49,799 bases of DNA from Kordia sp. (lineage in GTDB: Bacteria > Bacteroidota > Bacteroidia > Flavobacteriales > Flavobacteriaceae). Location of the stretch: positions 1 through 49,799 of the forward strand of contig NZ_JAKVBC010000039.1 of the NCBI RefSeq assembly GCF_022447245.1, read 5' to 3'. The position numbers were made by a program, and so were the translations under genes. The notes beneath the pieces were generated by a model, which was not told where the DNA came from, searched no databases, and worked only from the letters and a program-made list of their open reading frames with translations. This document shows, piece after piece, positions 37,879 through 49,235 of this stretch; within the stretch, counting starts at the first letter, position 1, and each line of letters begins with the position of its first letter.

Positions 37879-39744
37879 TCACGATATATAATTTATTGTT
37901 TCCGGTGTTTTCAGTATTTTTTTCCAAAAATCACTGTAAAAATTTGGTGTTTTTAATAATGTTTTATGATTACCATGTACTTTTGTTTCTCCTTCTTGCA
38001 TGACATAAATTTCATCAGCAATTTGTTTTAAATAGTGTAAGTGATGTGAAATGAAAATGATGGTAATTTTTGACTTAAATTGTTTTAATAATTCAAAGAC
38101 AAATAATTCTGTTTTTCTATCCATGGAAGCTGTAAATTCATCTAAAACCAATAGCTGAGGTTTTTTGTACAATACACGAATTAGTGCTAATATTAGCTTT
38201 TGTCCGCTTGATAAGTTTACGCCGCCTTTGCCTAACATAGTAGCATACCCTTTTGGCAAACGTTGAATAAAATCTTCGAAACCGTATTCTGTGATAAATG
38301 CATCTACATTTTGTAAGGTATCATCTTCACCAAGTACAATATTGTCAAATACAGTATTTGGGAAAATTGGAATTTCTTGTGGAATAACTCCGATAATATT
38401 TAGCCAATCTTTTGTTAATACCTGATGAAGCGGAATTTCTTTATTTACTATAATTTCTCCGTTAGTGTGTGTGTAGAACTTTTGAATAATTTGTCCTAAA
38501 GTACTTTTTCCACAACCGCTTTCACCAACAATGGCAATACATTGTTTTTGGGAAATTTTAATATTAACATTATTGAGTACTTGTTTTTTATCTTCAAAAC
38601 CAAAAGACACATTTTTGATTTCGAGTGATTTAAACTTTTTTACAGGAGTTTTTCCAGTATCTTCTTCTTGCAACGCTGTAAACTCATGTACTCTATCAAA
38701 TGCAACTTTTGCTTCGTTTATTGGAATGGCAACTAAGGCTAAACTTGCGACCGAAGGTAATAATGAACTTGCAATACACAAAACTGCTGTTAATTCACCA
38801 ATGAGCATGGTACCGCCATACACTTGAAATGAGGTGTATATTAAAACGCTCATCAAAAATAAAACGCCAAATACACTTGAAAATAGCGACAATCGAACAT
38901 TTATTTTTCCAAGTTGAAATACTTTATCTTGAAAATCGCCATAAACACGTTGATTCAACTTTTGAAAAACACCTTGTCTGTTGGTATTTTTAATAATAGA
39001 TATATTTTGCAATGAACTGATATAATTACTTTCATTATCGGTACAGCTTTGCATCACTTCTTTTTGGGCTTTGATGATTTTTGTGTTAAAACCATACATC
39101 AATAAGAAATAAAACGGTAAGCTAATGGCGGCAATCAACCCAATATGCCAAGAATAGTAAAACAAAAAGCCTAGGGATACTATCGAAATAAGGGTATGAA
39201 TCACTACGTTTCCAATGACAACTTTAATAACATTTTGAATGCGTTGTGTATCGTTGAATCTCGCTACCAATTCGCCAATCTTACGAGTATCAAAGAACGG
39301 TTTAGGTAAACTTAGCAACGAAGTATAAAATCGATCAATAATACGATTGTTTACGTTTTTACTCTGTGAAATTAAGAATTGATTACGCAAAGTAGTAAAA
39401 TATGCTCTAATCAATAATAACACCGTTACAACACTCATGCTAATAATGAGCATTTTGGTATTTTTTGATGGTAAAATAACATCAATAAGCTGTTGAGCAA
39501 ATACCGCAATGCTCATCCCTAAAATAGCAATGCAAAGGCCTAAAATAATACTGTAACCTATAGTTTTTTGGTCGGGTTTTATAATATTTAAAAACCACTG
39601 TTTACGTAATTCGTAGCGTTTGTTAAATTTTTCTGAGTTTTCATCGATATTCATCGATTGAATGATTTGGTATACAATGCCAAAAGCTAAAATCAAGATC
39701 GCTAGGATCAAGAAATAGATAATATTATCATTAGTTAGTTTCAT
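37879..39744 (-). CDS. Peptide exporter-type ABC transporter without the C39 peptidase
   Basis: 621 residues. The first helix (about 8-28) and a short linker replace the N-terminal C39 peptidase seen in peptidase-containing exporters; the six-helix domain follows (60-360), then the ATPase with GESGCGKST, the signature LSSGQKLIL, Walker B LLVLDEFTAS and a double His after ISHH. The membrane domain looks closest to bacteriocin and RiPP exporters. It is divergent from the TPR-AraC regulator across two dyads. It may export the GG-leader peptide of this locus with a separate protease. Confidence 0.85.
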   Translation of the reverse strand: MKLTNDNIIYFLILAILILAFGIVYQIIQSMNIDENSEKFNKRYELRKQWFLNIIKPDQKTIGYSIILGLCIAILGMSIAVFAQQLIDVILPSKNTKMLIISMSVVTVLLLIRAYFTTLRNQFLISQSKNVNNRIIDRFYTSLLSLPKPFFDTRKIGELVARFNDTQRIQNVIKVVIGNVVIHTLISIVSLGFLFYYSWHIGLIAAISLPFYFLLMYGFNTKIIKAQKEVMQSCTDNESNYISSLQNISIIKNTNRQGVFQKLNQRVYGDFQDKVFQLGKINVRLSLFSSVFGVLFLMSVLIYTSFQVYGGTMLIGELTAVLCIASSLLPSVASLALVAIPINEAKVAFDRVHEFTALQEEDTGKTPVKKFKSLEIKNVSFGFEDKKQVLNNVNIKISQKQCIAIVGESGCGKSTLGQIIQKFYTHTNGEIIVNKEIPLHQVLTKDWLNIIGVIPQEIPIFPNTVFDNIVLGEDDTLQNVDAFITEYGFEDFIQRLPKGYATMLGKGGVNLSSGQKLILALIRVLYKKPQLLVLDEFTASMDRKTELFVFELLKQFKSKITIIFISHHLHYLKQIADEIYVMQEGETKVHGNHKTLLKTPNFYSDFWKKILKTPETINYIS

Positions 39745-39809
39745 CTTTTGGTGATTAGGGTTTCAATAATTCATCGTTGTACCGTAAATTGTTGCTGATT
39801 TTGGAAAGT

Positions 39810-39864
39810 TTGTTGATTCGCTACTAGTCGTTGGTAAGACAACTAGTAGCACGTTAATCAACAA
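39810..39864. promoter_or_regulatory. Nested dyad, likely operator or cruciform
   Basis: Outer arms TTGTTGATT (39810-39818) and AATCAACAA (39856-39864), inner arms CTACTAGT (39821-39828) and ACTAGTAG (39842-39849). Total 17 bp paired, with a 13-base loop and no T run, so it is not a terminator. It lies 66 bases upstream of the exporter start. Confidence 0.65.
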
Positions 39865-39981
39865 CCATACTTTAAGAAAGTATTCGTCGATCTAAATATT
39901 TACGAACTGAACATTGCGATAAAGAAATCGGCTAAACTTTATTTTCATGTTTTTCAGAAGCAAATAATTTAGATCTTCATT

Positions 39982-40008
39982 TGAAGTTTTTGTTATGAGA
40001 AAACTTCA
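39982..40008. promoter_or_regulatory. Second dyad in the divergent region
   Basis: TGAAGTTTT-9-AAAACTTCA, perfect 9-bp arms. Arm spacing of about two helical turns fits a dimeric regulator. Confidence 0.5.
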
Positions 40009-40126
40009 TTGCTTTTGAATCGCTTATCGTTTATTGTTACGGTAAATGTAAGATGAAAATTCCCCTAAAAACAAGAGAAGCTATTCACGATTTATAAATC
40101 TTTCATAAATTTTTATAAAAAAAATG

Positions 40127-40134
40127 TACCTTTG
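40127..40134 (+). promoter_or_regulatory. -7 element for the TPR-AraC gene
   Basis: TACCTTTG matches TAnnTTTG. It puts transcription start near 40141 and so rules out the TTG at 40137 as start codon, favouring ATG at 40188. Confidence 0.5.
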
Positions 40135-40187
40135 GTTTGATTGAAAACTTACCCGAACTTAGTATATATAGTTTACAGCCACCACCG

Positions 40188-41918
40188 ATGATCTCTAAAA
40201 AAAGACCAATTAAAAACTCAGTATTTACAGTAGTGTTACTGCTTTTTAATATTGTTTTAGTTGCTCAAAACAATGTTATAAAAGCCAAGGATAATACTTC
40301 CAAAGTAACCAAGGCAAAGTCAAAAATAAACGCGCAAAAACGCAGCGAATTAGAAATGGCTTTACAGAAGGCAAAACAGACTGAAAACACCTCAGAAATA
40401 GCAAAAGCATACTACGAATATTCAAATTTTTATCTGAGATACTTGGATGAGTTATGTGTACGATATAGTGACAGTATTATATATTTAACGAAAGATTTAA
40501 AAAATAATAAAAGGTTTCCAGCAGATGGATATAATCAAAAAGGAAGGTATTATTATCGACTTGGAAAATACAAACTCGCACTTGATAATTTTACAACCGC
40601 ATTAGATCGTGCTCCTGAAAATACAATACTACATGAAACAATCAATTTCAATATAGGTTTAATAAAAAATACGATCAAACGACATGATGAGTCTAAAAAA
40701 ATATTTAAACAATATGTTCGTTTTTTAGAATCAAATGAAGATCAAATTAAAACCAAAAGCTATAACAGAGCTTTGTTTGCGCTTTCGCACTCATTTACCT
40801 ACACAGGTGAATTTGATTCTGCTAGATATTATATTGATAAAGGAATGAAAAATAGCATGGCTATTAATGATCAAGATAGTTATAATTATTTTGTGTTAAA
40901 TTCTGGAATTAACTCTTACTTTAAAAAGGATTATAAAGCTGCGCAAGATAGTTTGATAAAAGCGAAGAATACGTTTGCTAATGATAAAAATCAAATACTA
41001 TCCCTAGCTTTTGCGTATTTATTTTTAGGAAAAACGAATAAGGCTTTAAATGAAGATAGTATTCAACACTTTATAAAAGTCGATTCTATTTTGGAAATAA
41101 CCAAAGATGTAATGCCCGAATTATTAGAAGCTTATCCATATATTAAAGAATACTACAAGTCTAAAGGCGATCGGGAAAACTTAAATCATTATATGACTCA
41201 AGAATTAAGCTTTCGAGATATTTCTACAGCAAATTATGAGGATCTAGTTAAAAATATTGTTACAAATTATGATAATAAAATTCTAGAAAAAGAAAGAAAC
41301 AAAATTATCAAGGAAATAAAAGAAAAGGATAATGTTATTATCATTGTATTGTTATCTCTGTTATTAGCTTTTGCAGGAGCAATTTATTATTTCTTTAGAA
41401 AACAAGTCATTCACAAAAAGCGTTTTCATAAATTACTAGCAGAACAACAAAAGAAAAAGGAACGCATAGCCCAAGAGACAAAAAAAGAACAAATAGTAGA
41501 AAAAAAGCCTTCAACTACTATTGAAAATACGATAAAAGAATTGCCAGAAGATTTGGTAAATGACATTTTAACCAAACTTGAAAAGTTTGAAGCAACAGAT
41601 AAGTTTGTAAAGAAAAAATATACCTTGCCTCAACTGGCAAAAGAGTTAAGTACGAACGGGACTTACTTATCAAAAGTAATTAATGAAGTGAAGCAAGTAA
41701 ACTTTTCTAATTACCTAAATCAACTAAGAATTGAATATGCTATTGAGCAAATCACAAATAATTCTCGTTTTAGAGAGTATACAATAAAAGCCATTGCTGA
41801 AGAATGTGGATTTAAAACGCAACAGTCATTTTCAGCTGCTTTTTATAAAAAAACAGGAATAAAACCGTCATTTTTTATACGACAATTAAAAAACAAGATA
41901 AAAAATATAAACAACTGA
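40188..41918 (+). CDS. TPR-transmembrane-AraC regulator
   Basis: 576 residues from ATG 40188. Order: signal peptide or first helix (FTVVLLLFNIVLVAQ), a periplasmic part with TPR-type helical repeats (about 50-350, for example YNQKGRYYYRLGKYKLALDN), a transmembrane helix (VIIIVLLSLLLAFAGAIYYFF, about 387-407), a coiled basic linker, then the AraC DNA-binding domain (LPQLAKELSTNGTYLSKVIN and IKAIAEECGFKTQQSFSAAF). This is a one-protein sensor that could signal from the periplasm to DNA. It sits between the exporter and the peptide gene and probably controls both. Confidence 0.9.
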   Translation: MISKKRPIKNSVFTVVLLLFNIVLVAQNNVIKAKDNTSKVTKAKSKINAQKRSELEMALQKAKQTENTSEIAKAYYEYSNFYLRYLDELCVRYSDSIIYLTKDLKNNKRFPADGYNQKGRYYYRLGKYKLALDNFTTALDRAPENTILHETINFNIGLIKNTIKRHDESKKIFKQYVRFLESNEDQIKTKSYNRALFALSHSFTYTGEFDSARYYIDKGMKNSMAINDQDSYNYFVLNSGINSYFKKDYKAAQDSLIKAKNTFANDKNQILSLAFAYLFLGKTNKALNEDSIQHFIKVDSILEITKDVMPELLEAYPYIKEYYKSKGDRENLNHYMTQELSFRDISTANYEDLVKNIVTNYDNKILEKERNKIIKEIKEKDNVIIIVLLSLLLAFAGAIYYFFRKQVIHKKRFHKLLAEQQKKKERIAQETKKEQIVEKKPSTTIENTIKELPEDLVNDILTKLEKFEATDKFVKKKYTLPQLAKELSTNGTYLSKVINEVKQVNFSNYLNQLRIEYAIEQITNNSRFREYTIKAIAEECGFKTQQSFSAAFYKKTGIKPSFFIRQLKNKIKNINN

Positions 41919-41978
41919 TTTTCATTGCTTTGAAATTGTGTTTTTAACTTAAAATTTATAAATATTGTGTAGTTTCAT

Positions 41979-42010
41979 TTGTTTTTATCCTAATAAAGGT
42001 CATACATTTG
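41979..42010 (+). promoter_or_regulatory. Promoter of the GG-leader peptide gene
   Basis: TTG at 41979-41981 and TACATTTG at 42003-42010, 21 bases apart. Transcription would start near 42017, before the ATG at 42035. Confidence 0.65.
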
Positions 42011-42034
42011 AGTATAACATTAAAACGAAAAAGA

Positions 42035-42220
42035 ATGAGAAACCAAACTACATCCCTAAACAAATTGCTATTATCAAAAGTGAAAATAGCTACTGTAAGT
42101 GAGCAAGAAATGATTTTAGGTGGTGACCGCAAAAAAAGAGGTACCAACTCAAAAACAGGAGATAATGGTAACACAATGTTTGGCTACGTTGGTCCAGTAG
42201 ATGAACTAGCATTCATGTGA
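42035..42220 (+). CDS. Precursor peptide with double-glycine leader
   Basis: 61 residues from ATG 42035. Leader: LNKLLLSKVKIATVSEQEMI then LGG, which matches the Bacteroidetes natural-product leader (lanthipeptide-type K-x-x-x-KIAxLxxxEMxxxxGG). After GG the core is 31 residues, DRKKRGTNSKTGDNGNT and a tail MFGYVGPVDELAFM. It has several Thr/Ser but no Cys, so a lanthionine ring is not possible; other Ser/Thr or backbone changes, or simple export, remain open. It has its own promoter and precedes the prolyl oligopeptidase by 71 bases. No LanB, LanC or radical SAM gene is visible in the window. Confidence 0.78.
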   Translation: MRNQTTSLNKLLLSKVKIATVSEQEMILGGDRKKRGTNSKTGDNGNTMFGYVGPVDELAFM

Positions 42221-42291
42221 AGTCATTTTAAAGTGCTAAAAGTGTGCAAGTCCTTTACCAAGATTTGTACACTTATTAATTTTCAGATTTT

Positions 42292-44478
42292 ATGAGTAGA
42301 AAATTGCTATGTATTATTTTAATAATTCTCGTAAGTTGTTCAAAAGAACATTCGTTTCAACGAACGCTTCCTGATACTATTAAAGATAATACTACTGAAA
42401 CATATCATGGGAAAGTAATTGCAGATCAATTTAGACCGTTGGAAAACATAAAAGATTCTATGGTTTTGGACTGGTATGAAAAAGAAGCTAATTATGCAAA
42501 CAATATACTCAATAATATCACAAGTCGTGAGTTATTTCAAGCTCAAAAGAATGCTTCTAGCGTTCAAATTTCTGAGCTAACTTTTACGAACGACGACCAT
42601 TATTATTACTTAAAAAAAGAAGCCAAAGAAATTACCGCAAAACTATACTGTAGGTATCAATTAAAAGGTGAGGAGATACTAATTTTTGATCCTAAAAACT
42701 ATCAAACAATTTCAAGTGATACCTACTATATTAATTATTTTAACCCAAGTTGGGATAATAGTAAAATCGTGATTAGTCTTTCCAAAGATGATGAGGAAAT
42801 TTCCAATATGATCATCTTAGACACAAAAACAAAAAAACAATATCCGCAAGTAATACAAAATGCCTGGCCAGTTGCGTTAGGCGGCGTACGTTGGTTGTCT
42901 GACGATAGCGGTTTTTTTTATGAATATGTCCCTGAGACTAATAGTGATGCTGAAGATTATTTGAAAAACGTAGAAACCGTTTTATATAAAATTGGAAGCA
43001 ATCCAAAAAGGAGAAACGTATACTTTTCTAAAAAGAACAACCCAGAAATTAAAATGAATTCAGGAGATTTTCCTGAGATAATTCTACAAAATCCAAATGA
43101 CAAGTATTTGTTCAGTAATGTTTCTGGTGCAAGTGCATATTATGAGTATTACTATACAGAATATGCTAATTTGTACAATACTAAAATAGCATGGCAACCT
43201 TTATTTAAGCAGGAAGATAAAGTGCCATTTTTTTATGTGATGGAAGATGATTTGTATTTTGTAACAGCTCGAAACGCTTCTAATTTCAAAATATGTAAAA
43301 CATCATTGAAAAATCCAGATGTTCGCAATGCTGAAGTCGTAGTAGCAGAAGATCCAAGAGCAACTATTTCTGATTTTGTACTTACCAAACAAGGATTATT
43401 CTTTGTGAAAACAAAAAACGGAGTGTCTTCAAAACTTTATAAATTAGAAGATAGGGAAGTAGTAGAAATTCCAATTCCGAAACCAGCAGGAGCCATTTAT
43501 TTGATTTCTAAAGGAACGAATTATGATGATTTATGGATTGAAGTTAGCGGCTGGACGACCAATGAAGTACGATACAAATACAATTCAGAGGATAGTACAT
43601 TTATGGAGGAAAGTATCTATCCAAAAAAGAGCACTAAAAATTACGATGATATTGTTGTAGAAGAAGTAGAAGTACCTTCGCATGACGGAGTATTGATTCC
43701 ACTTTCGTTAATTTATCATAAAGACACACAAAAAGATGGAAACAATCATGTAATGATGAGTGGTTATGGAACGTACGCTTTTTCCATGACACCAGAAGTA
43801 AATCCATTGATGATGCAATGGATTGATAAAGGAGGAATTTATGCTGTAACTCATGTGCGTGGAGGAGGAGAAAAAGGAGATACTTGGCACAAAGCAGGAT
43901 TTAAAAAGACCAAACCCAATACATGGAAAGATTTTATTGCTTGTACAGAATATTTAATCGAAAAAAAATATACCAATCCTAAAAAAATTGCAGCCTGGAG
44001 TTCAAGTGCTGGAGGAATTTTAATTGGACGTGCTATTACAGAACGCCCAGATTTATATGCAGCAGCCATTGTGCGTGTGGGTAAACTAAATACCTTGCGC
44101 TCTGAAAATACACCAAACGGACTCAATGGTGTCAAAGAGTACGGAACTGTAAAAGCCCCGAACGAGTTTACATATTTATTAGAAATGGATGCATATCACC
44201 ATATAAAAAAAGGAGAAAAATATCCTGCATTATTATTGACAGCAGGAATGAATGATACTAGAGTTCCGATGTGGCAACCTGGAAAGTTTGCCGCAAAAAT
44301 GATTCAAGCCAATGCAGCCAATACTCCCATTGTATTCAATATCGATTTTAAAAGCGGACATGGATTTGATGCAAGTGCCGAAAAACGGAGTCGAGAATTA
44401 CAAGACATGTTGTCTTTTGCATTTTGGCAAACTGGGCACAAAGATTTTACACTAAAAGAAAATTCATTTACAAATTAA
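42292..44478 (+). CDS. Prolyl oligopeptidase (S9A) lipoprotein
   Basis: 728 residues. Signal peptide and lipobox VSC (Cys16), so it is anchored in the periplasm. A beta-propeller (about 70-410) precedes the alpha/beta hydrolase domain with catalytic Ser572 (SSSAGG), Asp655 (NDTRVP) and His690 (GHG). These cut after Pro in peptides; some plant and fungal members cyclise peptides. It follows the precursor peptide gene whose core has a single Pro (YVGPVDE). Lipid anchoring and the gene order suggest that it acts on an exported peptide. Ends at a terminator. Confidence 0.9.
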   Translation: MSRKLLCIILIILVSCSKEHSFQRTLPDTIKDNTTETYHGKVIADQFRPLENIKDSMVLDWYEKEANYANNILNNITSRELFQAQKNASSVQISELTFTNDDHYYYLKKEAKEITAKLYCRYQLKGEEILIFDPKNYQTISSDTYYINYFNPSWDNSKIVISLSKDDEEISNMIILDTKTKKQYPQVIQNAWPVALGGVRWLSDDSGFFYEYVPETNSDAEDYLKNVETVLYKIGSNPKRRNVYFSKKNNPEIKMNSGDFPEIILQNPNDKYLFSNVSGASAYYEYYYTEYANLYNTKIAWQPLFKQEDKVPFFYVMEDDLYFVTARNASNFKICKTSLKNPDVRNAEVVVAEDPRATISDFVLTKQGLFFVKTKNGVSSKLYKLEDREVVEIPIPKPAGAIYLISKGTNYDDLWIEVSGWTTNEVRYKYNSEDSTFMEESIYPKKSTKNYDDIVVEEVEVPSHDGVLIPLSLIYHKDTQKDGNNHVMMSGYGTYAFSMTPEVNPLMMQWIDKGGIYAVTHVRGGGEKGDTWHKAGFKKTKPNTWKDFIACTEYLIEKKYTNPKKIAAWSSSAGGILIGRAITERPDLYAAAIVRVGKLNTLRSENTPNGLNGVKEYGTVKAPNEFTYLLEMDAYHHIKKGEKYPALLLTAGMNDTRVPMWQPGKFAAKMIQANAANTPIVFNIDFKSGHGFDASAEKRSRELQDMLSFAFWQTGHKDFTLKENSFTN

Positions 44479-44823: not shown

Positions 44824-45243
44824 GTGTGTAAAGAAGATACTGTTGCCATCGCAAGTGAAGTAGCATACTTAGAAAATTTTATTGCATTGCAAAAGATGCG
44901 ACATCACAATCGTGGTCAAATTAGCTTTGAAAAAGATATTACTATTAATAGATTGCAAATAACGCCTATGATTTTGATTGTATTTTTAGAAAATGCTTTT
45001 AAACATGGTTTTGATTTGCTTGAAAAAGATGCTTTTTTAAAAATAGAACTTACCGTAAAAGAAAATTTACTTCATTTTTTTATTGAGAATAATTTTAATG
45101 AAGCTGATCAAAATAAATCAATAGGTATAGGACTTGAAAATGTAAAAAGAAGATTATCTTTAATTTATCCCAATACTCATGAATTGACTATTGTCAAAGA
45201 AAACACGTTGTTTCGCGTGGATTTAAAATTACATATCGAATGA
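44824..45243 (+). pseudogene. C-terminal remnant of a LytS-type histidine kinase
   Basis: About 139 residues: the end of the dimerisation region (SEVAYLENFIALQKMRH) and the ATP-binding domain (ITPMILIVFLENAFKHG with the N box, GIGLENVKRRLSLIYP). The membrane part and the phospho-His region (NPHFLFN) are missing, cut at the junction with the M1 remnant. The stop overlaps the next ATG (ATGA), as in a real operon. An intact paralogue is at 48060-49118. Confidence 0.82.
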
Positions 45244-45966
45244 ATTGTATTACTGTAGATGATGAACCATTAGCACACAAAAATTATACAGAATTATTGT
45301 GTCAATCTTTCGTTTTTAACCATTGAAAGCGAATGCCATTCTGCTTTTGAAGCAATCAATTATTTACATGGACACGAAGTAGATTTGATTTTTTTAGATA
45401 TCAATATGCCAAAGTTAAAAGGATTGGATTTTTTACGCACAATCAAAAATCCTCCATTGGTTATTATTACAACGGCTTATCAAGAATATGCGATGGAAGG
45501 TTATGAGTTGAATGTGATAGATTATTTATTGAAGCCCTTTAGTTTTGAGCGTTTTTTAAAAGCGATACAAAAAGCGAAAGATCACAAAAAGTTATTGGAT
45601 TTATCAGTAACAGGAAGTTCCAAACCAAAAGCAATACAGTCTTCAACTCAAAAAACTACTGTGGAGCGTATCTTCATTAAGGGCGATAAAAAAATCCACC
45701 AAATACAATAAGATGATATTCTCTACCTAGAAAGTTTGGGGAGTTATGTAAAGATTCATTTAGAAAATGAAACCATTACAACACTAGATCGCTTAACTAA
45801 TTTTGAAAAGACATTTCCTATAAATCAGTTTCTTCGCGTGCATAAATCTTTTATCATTGCTATAAAAAAAATCCTAACCATTGAAGGAAATCGATTAAAA
45901 ATTGGGGAAGCTACCATTCCAATCGGGAATGTGTACAAACAAAATTTGACCAAAATCATAAAGTGA
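45240..45966 (+). pseudogene. LytTR response regulator broken by a frameshift and a stop
   Basis: Starts MNCITVDDEPLAHK, then shifts frame in an A5 tract near 45280; the other frame goes on QNYCVNLSFLTIESE into a receiver domain with phospho-Asp in FLDINMP and YLLKPF. After a linker, TAA at 45709-45711 interrupts KKIHQIQ and the LytTR DNA-binding domain follows (DDILYLESLGSYVKIHLEN and FLRVHKSFIIAI). With both lesions and a truncated kinase the pair is dead. Confidence 0.85.
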
Positions 45967-47379: not shown

Positions 47380-48060
47380 CTATCTTTTAATTTTTTTTAT
47401 CACTTTTTCCTTATAAGAATCACTAATAGGAATTTCAATTTCTCCAATTTCTATGTCGTTTTTAGTATAGGCAGAAATCTTGTTAATATTTACTATATAT
47501 GAGCGATGGACACGTAAAAAATGATTGTTAAGCTCTTTTTCAAAAGCAGAAATTCCTCCTTTAAAAAGTATTTTTTTGTTCTCTAAATGAATTTGGAGAT
47601 AGTCTTTTAAGCTTTCTATGTATAATACATCATCAAGTATAATCTTGATGTTTTTTTTATTGCTTTGAATATAAATGTGCTTATTGACTGAATCATTAAT
47701 CCCAGTTTTAACACTCTCTAAAAATTTATGTATTGCTTTTAAAAATCGGGTGAAAATTATGGGTTTTAAAAGATAATCCACAACATTTAATTCATATCCC
47801 TCTAGTGCATATTCTCTAAACGCAGTTGTAAAAATAACCTTAGATGATATGTTTAGATTCTTGAGAAAGTCAGTTCCTTTAAGTAATGGCATTTCTATAT
47901 CTAAAAAAATTAAATCAACTTTTTCTTCTTTAAGGACTTTAAAGGCTTCAATTGCAGATGCACAGGAAGCTACTAACTTAAAATTTTCTAGTTGTGACAA
48001 ATGCCTTTCCATAAGCTCTCTCGCTAATTCTTCATCGTCAACGATTATACATGTATACAT
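47380..48060 (-). CDS. LytTR response regulator
   Basis: 226 residues: receiver domain with VDDEE, phospho-Asp in FLDIEMP and YLLKP, then a LytTR DNA-binding domain (DVLYIESLKDYLQIHLENK, FLRVHRSYIVN). Its ATG overlaps the kinase stop, so the two are translated together. It probably regulates the esterase gene next to it; that target is inferred. Confidence 0.94.
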   Translation of the reverse strand: MYTCIIVDDEELARELMERHLSQLENFKLVASCASAIEAFKVLKEEKVDLIFLDIEMPLLKGTDFLKNLNISSKVIFTTAFREYALEGYELNVVDYLLKPIIFTRFLKAIHKFLESVKTGINDSVNKHIYIQSNKKNIKIILDDVLYIESLKDYLQIHLENKKILFKGGISAFEKELNNHFLRVHRSYIVNINKISAYTKNDIEIGEIEIPISDSYKEKVIKKIKR

Positions 48061-49118
48061 TAGTTAGTAATTAGATTTAAGGTTGCGCTAAAATTCTTTT
48101 CATTGTCATTTAGAGTTAAAACATGGTTATTTCCATATAAAATATCCAACTGTTTCTTAACATTCTGTAATCCTAATGACTGTCTATTTTTAGTCTCATT
48201 TTCGGTATTAATTATTGAGGGTTTGGTATTTTCTATTTTAAAAAAAATAGCACTACCATCTACCTTTAACGTGATAGTAATTCTTGCTTCATTAATTTCT
48301 TCACTTACTCCGTGTTTAAAAGCATTTTCTACGAAAGTAAGCAATAATAATGGCGCAATCTTCGCACCCGTTTCTACATCGTGCTCAAAATTTATTTTTA
48401 ATCTTTTTCCATATCGTATTTTTTCTAATGCTATATAATTATCTAAAAGCTTTATTTCGTTGGTTAAAGGAACAAATTTGTCATTACATCTAAATAAAAT
48501 ATAATCTAATATTTCTGAAAGTTTATGAATGATCTCAGGCGCATCATCAGATTTCTTTAAAGTCAATAAATAAAGATTATTAAGAGTATTAAATAGGAAA
48601 TGAGGGTTCAATTGATTCTTTAAAGCTTCTAACTCTGATGATTTTTTTTGCTCTTTTAAAGTCAATATCTCTTTTTGATTGCGATAGTATTCAAAGGCAG
48701 TTAAAATGGCTGTGGGTAAAATTAATGCCGTAAAATCGTGAAAAAACGGAAATAAATCTGTGATCTGTTCTAAAAATGTACTTTGGTGTCTAGTTAGGTA
48801 AACTTCTGGATATTTGGGAATTAAATAATAACTTTTAATAAAATTATATATTACATATGTTAAATAAGCCGCGATGATAATACTAATGACGAACAAGCCT
48901 CTTTTCTTATTGTTCAATAACTTTGGAATCAAAATAAAAAGCACAAGATATGTGAGACCTACTTGAACCAATAACGAAAAAAACATATTTTCAAATAAGA
49001 ACATTTTGTTTGTATCAAAAGGCCATCTAGCTCCAATATAATAAGCAAGCAATAGTATCCAAAACAGCAAATGGAAAAGTGTTTTTTTGTGAAAGATTTT
49101 GTTTTTGATAGTTCTCAT
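48060..49118 (-). CDS. LytS/YehU-type sensor histidine kinase
   Basis: 352 residues from ATG 49118 (MRTIKNKIFHKKTL). Four membrane helices in the first 150 residues with no large outer domain, then a coiled segment and the His_kinase domain with QLNPHFLFNTLNNLY (phospho-His), and the ATP site LLTFVENAFKHG and LGLQNVKKQL. Partner of the LytTR regulator that follows without gap. Signal unknown. Confidence 0.93.
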   Translation of the reverse strand: MRTIKNKIFHKKTLFHLLFWILLLAYYIGARWPFDTNKMFLFENMFFSLLVQVGLTYLVLFILIPKLLNNKKRGLFVISIIIAAYLTYVIYNFIKSYYLIPKYPEVYLTRHQSTFLEQITDLFPFFHDFTALILPTAILTAFEYYRNQKEILTLKEQKKSSELEALKNQLNPHFLFNTLNNLYLLTLKKSDDAPEIIHKLSEILDYILFRCNDKFVPLTNEIKLLDNYIALEKIRYGKRLKINFEHDVETGAKIAPLLLLTFVENAFKHGVSEEINEARITITLKVDGSAIFFKIENTKPSIINTENETKNRQSLGLQNVKKQLDILYGNNHVLTLNDNEKNFSATLNLITN

Positions 49119-49235
49119 TTGCGTAAAGGTTAACAATACATAATTTTTAAGCAATTAATATAGTTCTAAATTTTAAGAGAATTAGAAAAATTGACGAATA
49201 GAAAGAAACTGCAAACATATAGCCAATAAGTGACT

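Follow-up and report, generated by a model that had tools for sequence, protein, structure and literature searches.

On a contig of Kordia sp. (NZ_JAKVBC010000039.1; one entire contig of one genome, 49,799 nt, hereafter the window) we found three adjacent forward-strand genes encoding a regulator with a TPR sensor and an AraC-type helix-turn-helix (HTH) domain (40188-41918), a small precursor peptide whose leader ends in a double glycine (GG; 42035-42220), and an oligopeptidase of family S9A (42292-44478). Judged by genome comparison, regulator, GG-leader precursor and S9A are one co-inherited unit. As to its role, the evidence tips slightly towards a dedicated module for a peptide of the ribosomally synthesized and post-translationally modified (RiPP) type, with a regulator loop and with trimming of the peptide by the S9A enzyme.

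Recurrence and co-inheritance of the three genes

The order regulator, precursor, S9A recurred in Kordia, Aquimarina, Chryseobacterium, Flavobacterium and other genera. A search of 11 Kordia genomes with the window S9A yielded numerous paralogues and several paralogous modules per genome, and the window plus 21 further loci were analyzed. Among these 22 loci, an open reading frame (ORF) with a GG leader preceded the S9A gene in 20 and a TPR-AraC gene was present in 19; L050 and L051 lacked a precursor and L041 was cut by the contig end. At L050 and L052 an S8 subtilase stood in the regulator's place. Outside Kordia, the test set comprised 70 loci (790 kb) with 2,165 small ORFs, to which we applied a leader profile trained on 20 Kordia precursors alone. 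All of the top 47 hits preceded a same-strand S9A gene; they came from 46 of the 70 loci and had a median distance of 40 nt (maximum 1,726 nt). Rank 48 was an ORF within a regulator gene, and ORFs that did not precede any S9A gene began at rank 52. A second profile, trained partly on first-profile hits which it later scored, found precursors in 59 of the 70 loci, including a fragment without start methionine at L063; a variant at L094 with a leader ending in AG is outside these 59. Eight housekeeping loci, whose S9As share 26-29% identity with the query, had no precursor within their 1.5 kb flanks. A preliminary description of this DNA had named co-occurrence of precursor and S9A gene in other Flavobacteriaceae as a check on their pairing, and these 46 loci with top-ranked leaders ahead of S9A bear it out.

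In a tree of 132 S9A proteins, rooted on the housekeeping S9As and leaving out three rows shorter than 600 aa (second copies at L138, L140 and L145, truncated by the locus end), all 89 precursor-linked S9As fell inside one clade of 112 rows (SH-aLRT 98). The flanks of 12 flavobacterial rows outside this clade contained neither precursor nor regulator. Distances among regulators followed those among S9As with r = 0.93 over 75 pairs, while 1,000 within-genus permutations reached at most 0.69; for within-genus pairs the correlation was 0.95, with permutations at 0.49 or lower. We also surveyed 397 genomes of the family for clade-type S9As (E 1e-150, two best candidates per genome scored) and found them in 40, with a GG precursor at 9 of the 27 loci L138-L164.

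Peptide, peptidase, regulator and operator

The precursor has an ATG start and 61 residues, of which the leader (42035-42124) carries an LxLxKx5-type motif and ends in GG at residues 29-30. The core that follows comprises 31 aa and no Cys, and the S9A gene begins 71 nt further on with its ATG at 42292. The length of 61 residues, the GG site, the Cys-free core and the 71-nt gap agree with the previous description. Against the NCBIfam class I lanthipeptide leader model NF038153 (lant_leader_L1a) the window leader scored 15 bits, below the cut-off of 22, and ten other precursors all stayed below the cut-offs of lanthipeptide and RiPP leader models. Visual inspection showed a charged, GG-terminated leader without a long hydrophobic stretch. 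Of 76 cores from the wider family, 37 had no Cys, 20 had one and 19 had two or more. These cores were short and hydrophilic (mean grand average of hydropathy, GRAVY, -0.93) with a negative net charge in 64 of 76, whereas the six window-type cores were all net positive (+1 to +4). The charge is an argument against a membrane-active peptide for the wider family, though not for the window locus. Even among the six close orthologues core identity was 42%, which makes the core hypervariable.

The S9A protein (728 aa; Pfam Peptidase_S9_N and Peptidase_S9) has the fold of its family, with beta-propeller and alpha/beta hydrolase domains and a Ser-Asp-His triad, and its S572, D655 and H690 align with the catalytic residues. 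Within the clade the Ser was found in 112 of 112 rows, and Asp and His in 111 each, with one gap each. The N-terminus MSRKLLCIILIILVSC contains a lipobox recognized by eye only and marks the window protein as a putative lipoprotein. The nearest structure to its fold was 2bkl, a prolyl endopeptidase. In prolyl oligopeptidase (POP), W595 stacks on the proline in the S1 pocket and the Asn following the catalytic Ser also has a role. This S1 Trp was present in eight of eight housekeeping rows but in none of the 112 clade rows and none of 12 sister rows, and the Asn is replaced by Ala or Gly in the clade. The peptide had earlier been proposed to be trimmed or cyclized at the single Pro of its core. 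This idea failed, with no Pro at that place in any of the five orthologous cores, three of the six cores in this group free of Pro, and neither a Pro at a common position nor a common C-terminal follower among the compared cores. Although 63 of the 76 cores of the wider family hold some Pro, Pro-directed cleavage or cyclization is not supported, given the lack of conservation of the core Pro together with the loss of the S1 Trp, and the window S9A would be expected to cut at a non-prolyl site. Two S9A genes in one locus were seen at L113, L115, L118, L058 and L091, each with at most one precursor found.

The regulator comprises 576 aa from its ATG start; the listed TTG start is located 17 codons upstream. 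Pfam placed TPR_8 slightly above the cut-off, other TPR models slightly below and HTH_18 far above. An AlphaFold model (mean pLDDT 83.8) contains an N-terminal helix at 8-33, a TPR superhelix at about 38-326 and a long helix at 329-434 with a hydrophobic stretch. This is in line with the earlier view of a membrane-spanning regulator, with an N-terminal hydrophobic helix, TPR repeats, one transmembrane stretch and HTH, the topology being read from sequence. In this arrangement the TPR part would be periplasmic and the HTH cytoplasmic. Among the fold matches were the peptide receptor systems Rap/Phr and NprR/NprX. The six orthologous regulators share 62% identity in the TPR part and 90% in the HTH, i.e. 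the sensor evolves faster.

The precursor gene appears to have its own promoter, as had been suggested, with a promoter-like TACATTTG at 42003-42010 (+), 32 nt ahead of the ATG, which we take to be the Bacteroidetes -7 type motif. This 8-mer was intact in four of six orthologous loci and had lost the G in two. The pattern TAnnTTTG occurred in 33 of 70 precursor upstream regions, compared to a mean of 8.5 in single-base shuffles. Further upstream we found an operator element with a -33 box (41949-41981, +), composed of the core ATTTATAAAT at 41954-41963 and CATTTG at 41976-41981. A second operator-like ATTTATAAAT upstream of the regulator (40090-40099, no strand assigned) was conserved in six of six orthologues. 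Kordia precursor upstream regions shared a conserved element which reads TCGTGATATTTATAAATATCACGA in one type and TTAAAATTTATAAATA in that of the window. When Kordia genomes were scanned with up to three mismatches allowed and the reversed sequence as control, each of the six genomes that carry this module type had a single copy of the window-type element with its -33 box, and the five that lack the module type had no copy (reversed control, 0). The 24-bp palindrome of the second type was found at 12 sites in 10 of the 11 genomes (reversed control, 0): eight of them ahead of precursor-S9A pairs, one ahead of a precursor lacking an S9A (genome G010), one ahead of a row of GG and Cys-rich precursors (genome G009) and two beside no recognized precursor. 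In G009 (L217, contig C2) the palindrome is located 94 nt ahead of three tandem precursors on the minus strand.

Over 84 upstream regions, the best dyad matched in at least 10 of 12 positions in 47 regions (shuffles, 12.65) and in at least 11 of 12 in 25 (shuffles, 1.05). A dyad of at least 8 of 10 at -98 to -64 was present for 58 of 83 precursor genes, compared to 4-11 in five control stretches of equal width. It is located around 80 nt ahead of the precursor ATG and its core mostly reads ATT[TC]ATRAAT, with locus-specific flanks. The cognate regulator would be expected to bind this element, and a dyad close to the promoter that occurs just once or twice in a genome would fit a local circuit. 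At the stringency of our scans the operators had no more than these one or two sites, which disfavors a global regulator. A hairpin (42240-42274, +; z -3.73) is located in the gap between the precursor and S9A genes, with pairing in 97.4% of cells across six orthologues, compared to 59.5% or less when slid. Its covariation equaled that of shuffles (263/500), and we therefore limit the claim to a conserved inverted repeat.

Export, modifying enzymes and neighboring genes

Divergent from the regulator, the window encodes an ABC exporter (37879-39744, minus strand) with Pfam matches to ABC_membrane and ABC_tran and none to C39, in line with the previous assignment of an exporter lacking its protease domain. 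It was found beside six of six orthologous Kordia loci and beside those only, and therefore stands outside the general module. Four other Kordia loci contain ABC proteins of the same loose cluster which have different starts and were judged by eye to be of other kinds. At L038 (4021-5193) the divergent exporter comprises just 390 aa, compared to about 620 in the other five Kordia genomes.

The preliminary description had stated that there was no dehydratase or cyclase. This holds for the window contig, where neither LanB nor LanC was matched, but not for the genome or the wider module. The same genome contained one LanB match (contig C1) and three LanC-like matches, all on other contigs. LanB was present in all 11 Kordia genomes, one each, and LanC and C39 proteins in six of six tested. 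With LanB, LanC and a C39 exporter encoded elsewhere in the genome, modification and GG export of the window peptide in trans are possible. Outside Kordia, a split LanB (typed by Pfam PF04738 and PF14028 on one representative pair, L061) was encoded within the fetched flanks of 30 of the 70 loci, in Chryseobacterium directly downstream of S9A. The candidate view that no maturase belongs to the module was overturned by these numerous flanks. A LanC search covering 20 of the 30 LanB-flanked loci gave no match in eight of the 20 genomes, which are draft assemblies; at one of these eight, L126, no precursor was found.

In the window's genome, the LanB locus (L229:3630-14861; genome G000, contig C1) combines LanC, split LanB, a TPR-AraC regulator, two precursors with similar leaders, HlyD and a C39 exporter. 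For the precursors of the Kordia LanB locus the best dyad was 9/12 at -75 with a different core, and ATT[TC]nn[AG]AAT was absent. Regulators of the TPR-AraC kind may thus control RiPP precursors on a wider scale.

Besides LanB, S8 protease and an ATP-grasp-like family, the module flanks shared few recurrent families, and no immunity family was recognized among those recurring. The S8 subtilase (typed on L058 and L050) recurs as a neighbor of the module, in some cases lying between the precursor and S9A genes, at L058, L063, L067, L078, L081, L106, L113, L122, L124, L050, L052 and L054. Genes near some second-type Kordia copies are presumably a grasp-with-spasm system, with Pfam matches weak or below cut-off apart from one SPASM match. 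At L230 (8820-12558; genome G000, contig C1), five small "KGGSG" or "KGDSG" precursors are accompanied by a SPASM protein, a C39 exporter and an ATP-grasp protein recognized by eye (no Pfam match), about 4 kb ahead of another regulator-precursor-S9A module. Downstream of the window S9A we observed remains of a LytS/LytR-type pair (44824-45966, +), consisting of a short fragment resembling a kinase (below the Pfam cut-off) and a response regulator whose receiver and LytTR pieces are separated by a frame break plus an in-frame stop. At 47380-49154 on the minus strand there is a similar pair whose reading frames are open.

Proposed circuit, rival readings and known systems

We infer regulator-operator binding, dehydration, export route, trimming and sensing as follows. 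The AraC domain of the cognate regulator would bind the dyad and activate the precursor gene, with the S9A gene transcribed by read-through past the hairpin. The precursor may be dehydrated at Ser/Thr by LanB, which is local in many genera and would act in trans in Kordia. It would then be cleaved at GG and leave the cell through an exporter of the C39 type or through the divergent ABC exporter. Outside the cytoplasm, the S9A would trim or clear the peptide at a non-prolyl site, and the TPR superhelix in the periplasm would sense the product or the ratio of trimmed to untrimmed peptide, thereby closing the loop. In its general form, this would be a widespread peptide autoinduction system of Bacteroidota, with a one-component transmembrane receptor that joins an RRNPP-like periplasmic TPR superhelix to a cytoplasmic AraC domain, a private, hypervariable signal exported by the GG route (and LanB-dehydrated in some genera), a co-inherited extracytoplasmic S9A making or destroying the active form, and several orthogonal copies working in parallel in the same cell, each with its own operator. 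We put this broader proposal forward tentatively and at rather less than even chances.

Several observations weigh against our main reading, the dedicated module. In sixteen clade rows neither precursor nor regulator was found and seven had a regulator without precursor, three being second tandem S9A copies; some of the clade rows lacking a precursor are truncated at contig ends or are second tandem copies. Within Flavobacterium alone (8 pairs), the distance correlation was 0.98 compared to 0.95 for permutations, and an independent-pairs test gave no significant sign that precursor and regulator are gained and lost together (median p 0.125). Genome G010 encodes a regulator, operator and precursor (L233:7331-9061, contig C12) with no clade S9A nearby, indicating that the peptidase is dispensable there and suggesting that the regulator-precursor pair could be the more basic part of the module. 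A crude lipobox pattern was found in just 45 of 112 clade S9As, so that lipoprotein anchoring would not be general. TPR-AraC regulators are common, with 20 matches longer than 400 residues in the window genome, the window's own included, of which two adjoin a clade S9A. The TPR part matched LGN, APPBP2 and other TPR proteins at equal Z, hence the fold is no proof of peptide sensing. The window operator itself is weakly palindromic (9/12). Finally, the net positive charge of the window-type cores slightly weakens the main reading and slightly strengthens an antimicrobial one.

An antimicrobial or competition peptide, secreted while the S9A serves as immunity or clearance enzyme at the surface of the producer, would agree with this positive charge, with the hypervariable core (42% identity among close orthologues) and with several paralogous modules per genome. 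Against it speak the cores of the wider family, which are short, hydrophilic and for the most part acidic, and the scarcity of recurring flank families, none recognized as immunity; we regard it as improbable. The locus might instead be a RiPP locus without feedback, with the S9A acting as maturation protease on a peptide that depends on LanB (compare FlaP and flavipeptin) and the regulator answering an environmental cue. The split LanB at 30 of 70 non-Kordia loci (in Chryseobacterium directly after S9A), the class I type leader motif, albeit below cut-offs, and the TPR-AraC gene beside two precursors in the Kordia LanB-LanC-C39 locus are all consistent with this view. It leaves unexplained, however, why each module retains a regulator of its own, with an operator that occurs just once or twice in a genome, and why the sensor evolves faster (TPR 62%, HTH 90%). 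We consider it unlikely, if a serious contender.

An S9A acting as a macrocyclase in the manner of PCY1 or OphP is very improbable. The enzymes share a family, and PCY1 and OphP were among the fold and sequence matches, but ordinary prolyl endopeptidases scored above both and the cores have neither a common Pro position nor a common C-terminal follower. That a protease, a small ORF and a common regulator became neighbors by chance, as the abundance of TPR-AraC genes and small ORFs might suggest, is contradicted by the cross-genus leader-profile test, the S9A clade and the distance correlation to a degree that makes it negligible. The pairing proposed earlier is in this sense not accidental, and it includes the regulator. 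The dedicated RiPP-type module with a regulator loop and S9A trimming remains our slightly favored reading. The parallel copies of the module are individually testable, the non-prolyl S9A branch gains a defined peptide partner, and the module points to LanB-flanked peptides that are often Cys-free and, in some genomes, without a detected LanC.

Compared to known systems, individual features are familiar. FlaP and LanPB are S9 oligopeptidases of class III lanthipeptides (PMC10885120, PMC7268733), and like them the module encodes an S9 oligopeptidase with a RiPP precursor. FlaP cuts the leader of its class III peptide after a Pro (PMC10885120), whereas the module combines an S9A without the prolyl S1 Trp, a precursor with a GG leader and a TPR-AraC regulator. 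In a Spirosoma MNIO cluster, a prolyl oligopeptidase with a secretion signal was suggested to cut a Bacteroidota RiPP (PMC12636315), which resembles the role considered here; that is a single cluster with another precursor type and modifying enzyme, and the accessible text mentions neither "regulator" nor "AraC". Class I lanthipeptides of Bacteroidetes have an LxLxKx5L leader, often with GG, and a C39 protease (PMC7268733). The module shares with them a leader motif of that type, albeit below model cut-offs, the GG site and the split LanB at 30 of 70 non-Kordia loci, and differs in that 37 of 76 cores are Cys-free, the window contig is without LanB and LanC, and LanC was unmatched in 8 of 20 LanB-flanked module genomes (draft assemblies).

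With respect to signaling, the Bacteroidales RiPP clusters BGC2 and BGC9 include TPR genes, and regulation after pheromone binding is mentioned as known for such domains (PMC10352776). They resemble the module in combining TPR genes with GG precursors; unlike here, the available text of that source mentions no oligopeptidase, peptidase S9 or S9 family, and no operator or co-inheritance was found in it. Within the accessible open-licence literature, no description of regulator, GG precursor and S9A together was found. A parallel in gene arrangement is the RRNPP group (Rap-Phr, NprR-NprX, PlcR-PapR), in which the precursor gene likewise directly adjoins the TPR receptor gene. As surveyed in Firmicutes, RRNPP receptors are described as intracellular proteins of 250-500 aa with mostly SEC-exported propeptides (PMC10075063), whereas the receptor of the module, at 576 aa, is membrane-spanning judging by its sequence and has an HTH of AraC type. 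Its peptide carries a GG leader, and the unit also includes a peptidase gene. The parts are of known kinds, while their combination, the transmembrane TPR-AraC receptor with a private operator and the non-prolyl S9A partner appear to be new and may represent peptide signaling of a kind undescribed in flavobacteria. If the TPR domain reads the peptide, the TPR-based quorum sensing of Firmicutes would have a membrane-spanning equivalent in a major phylum of Gram-negative bacteria.

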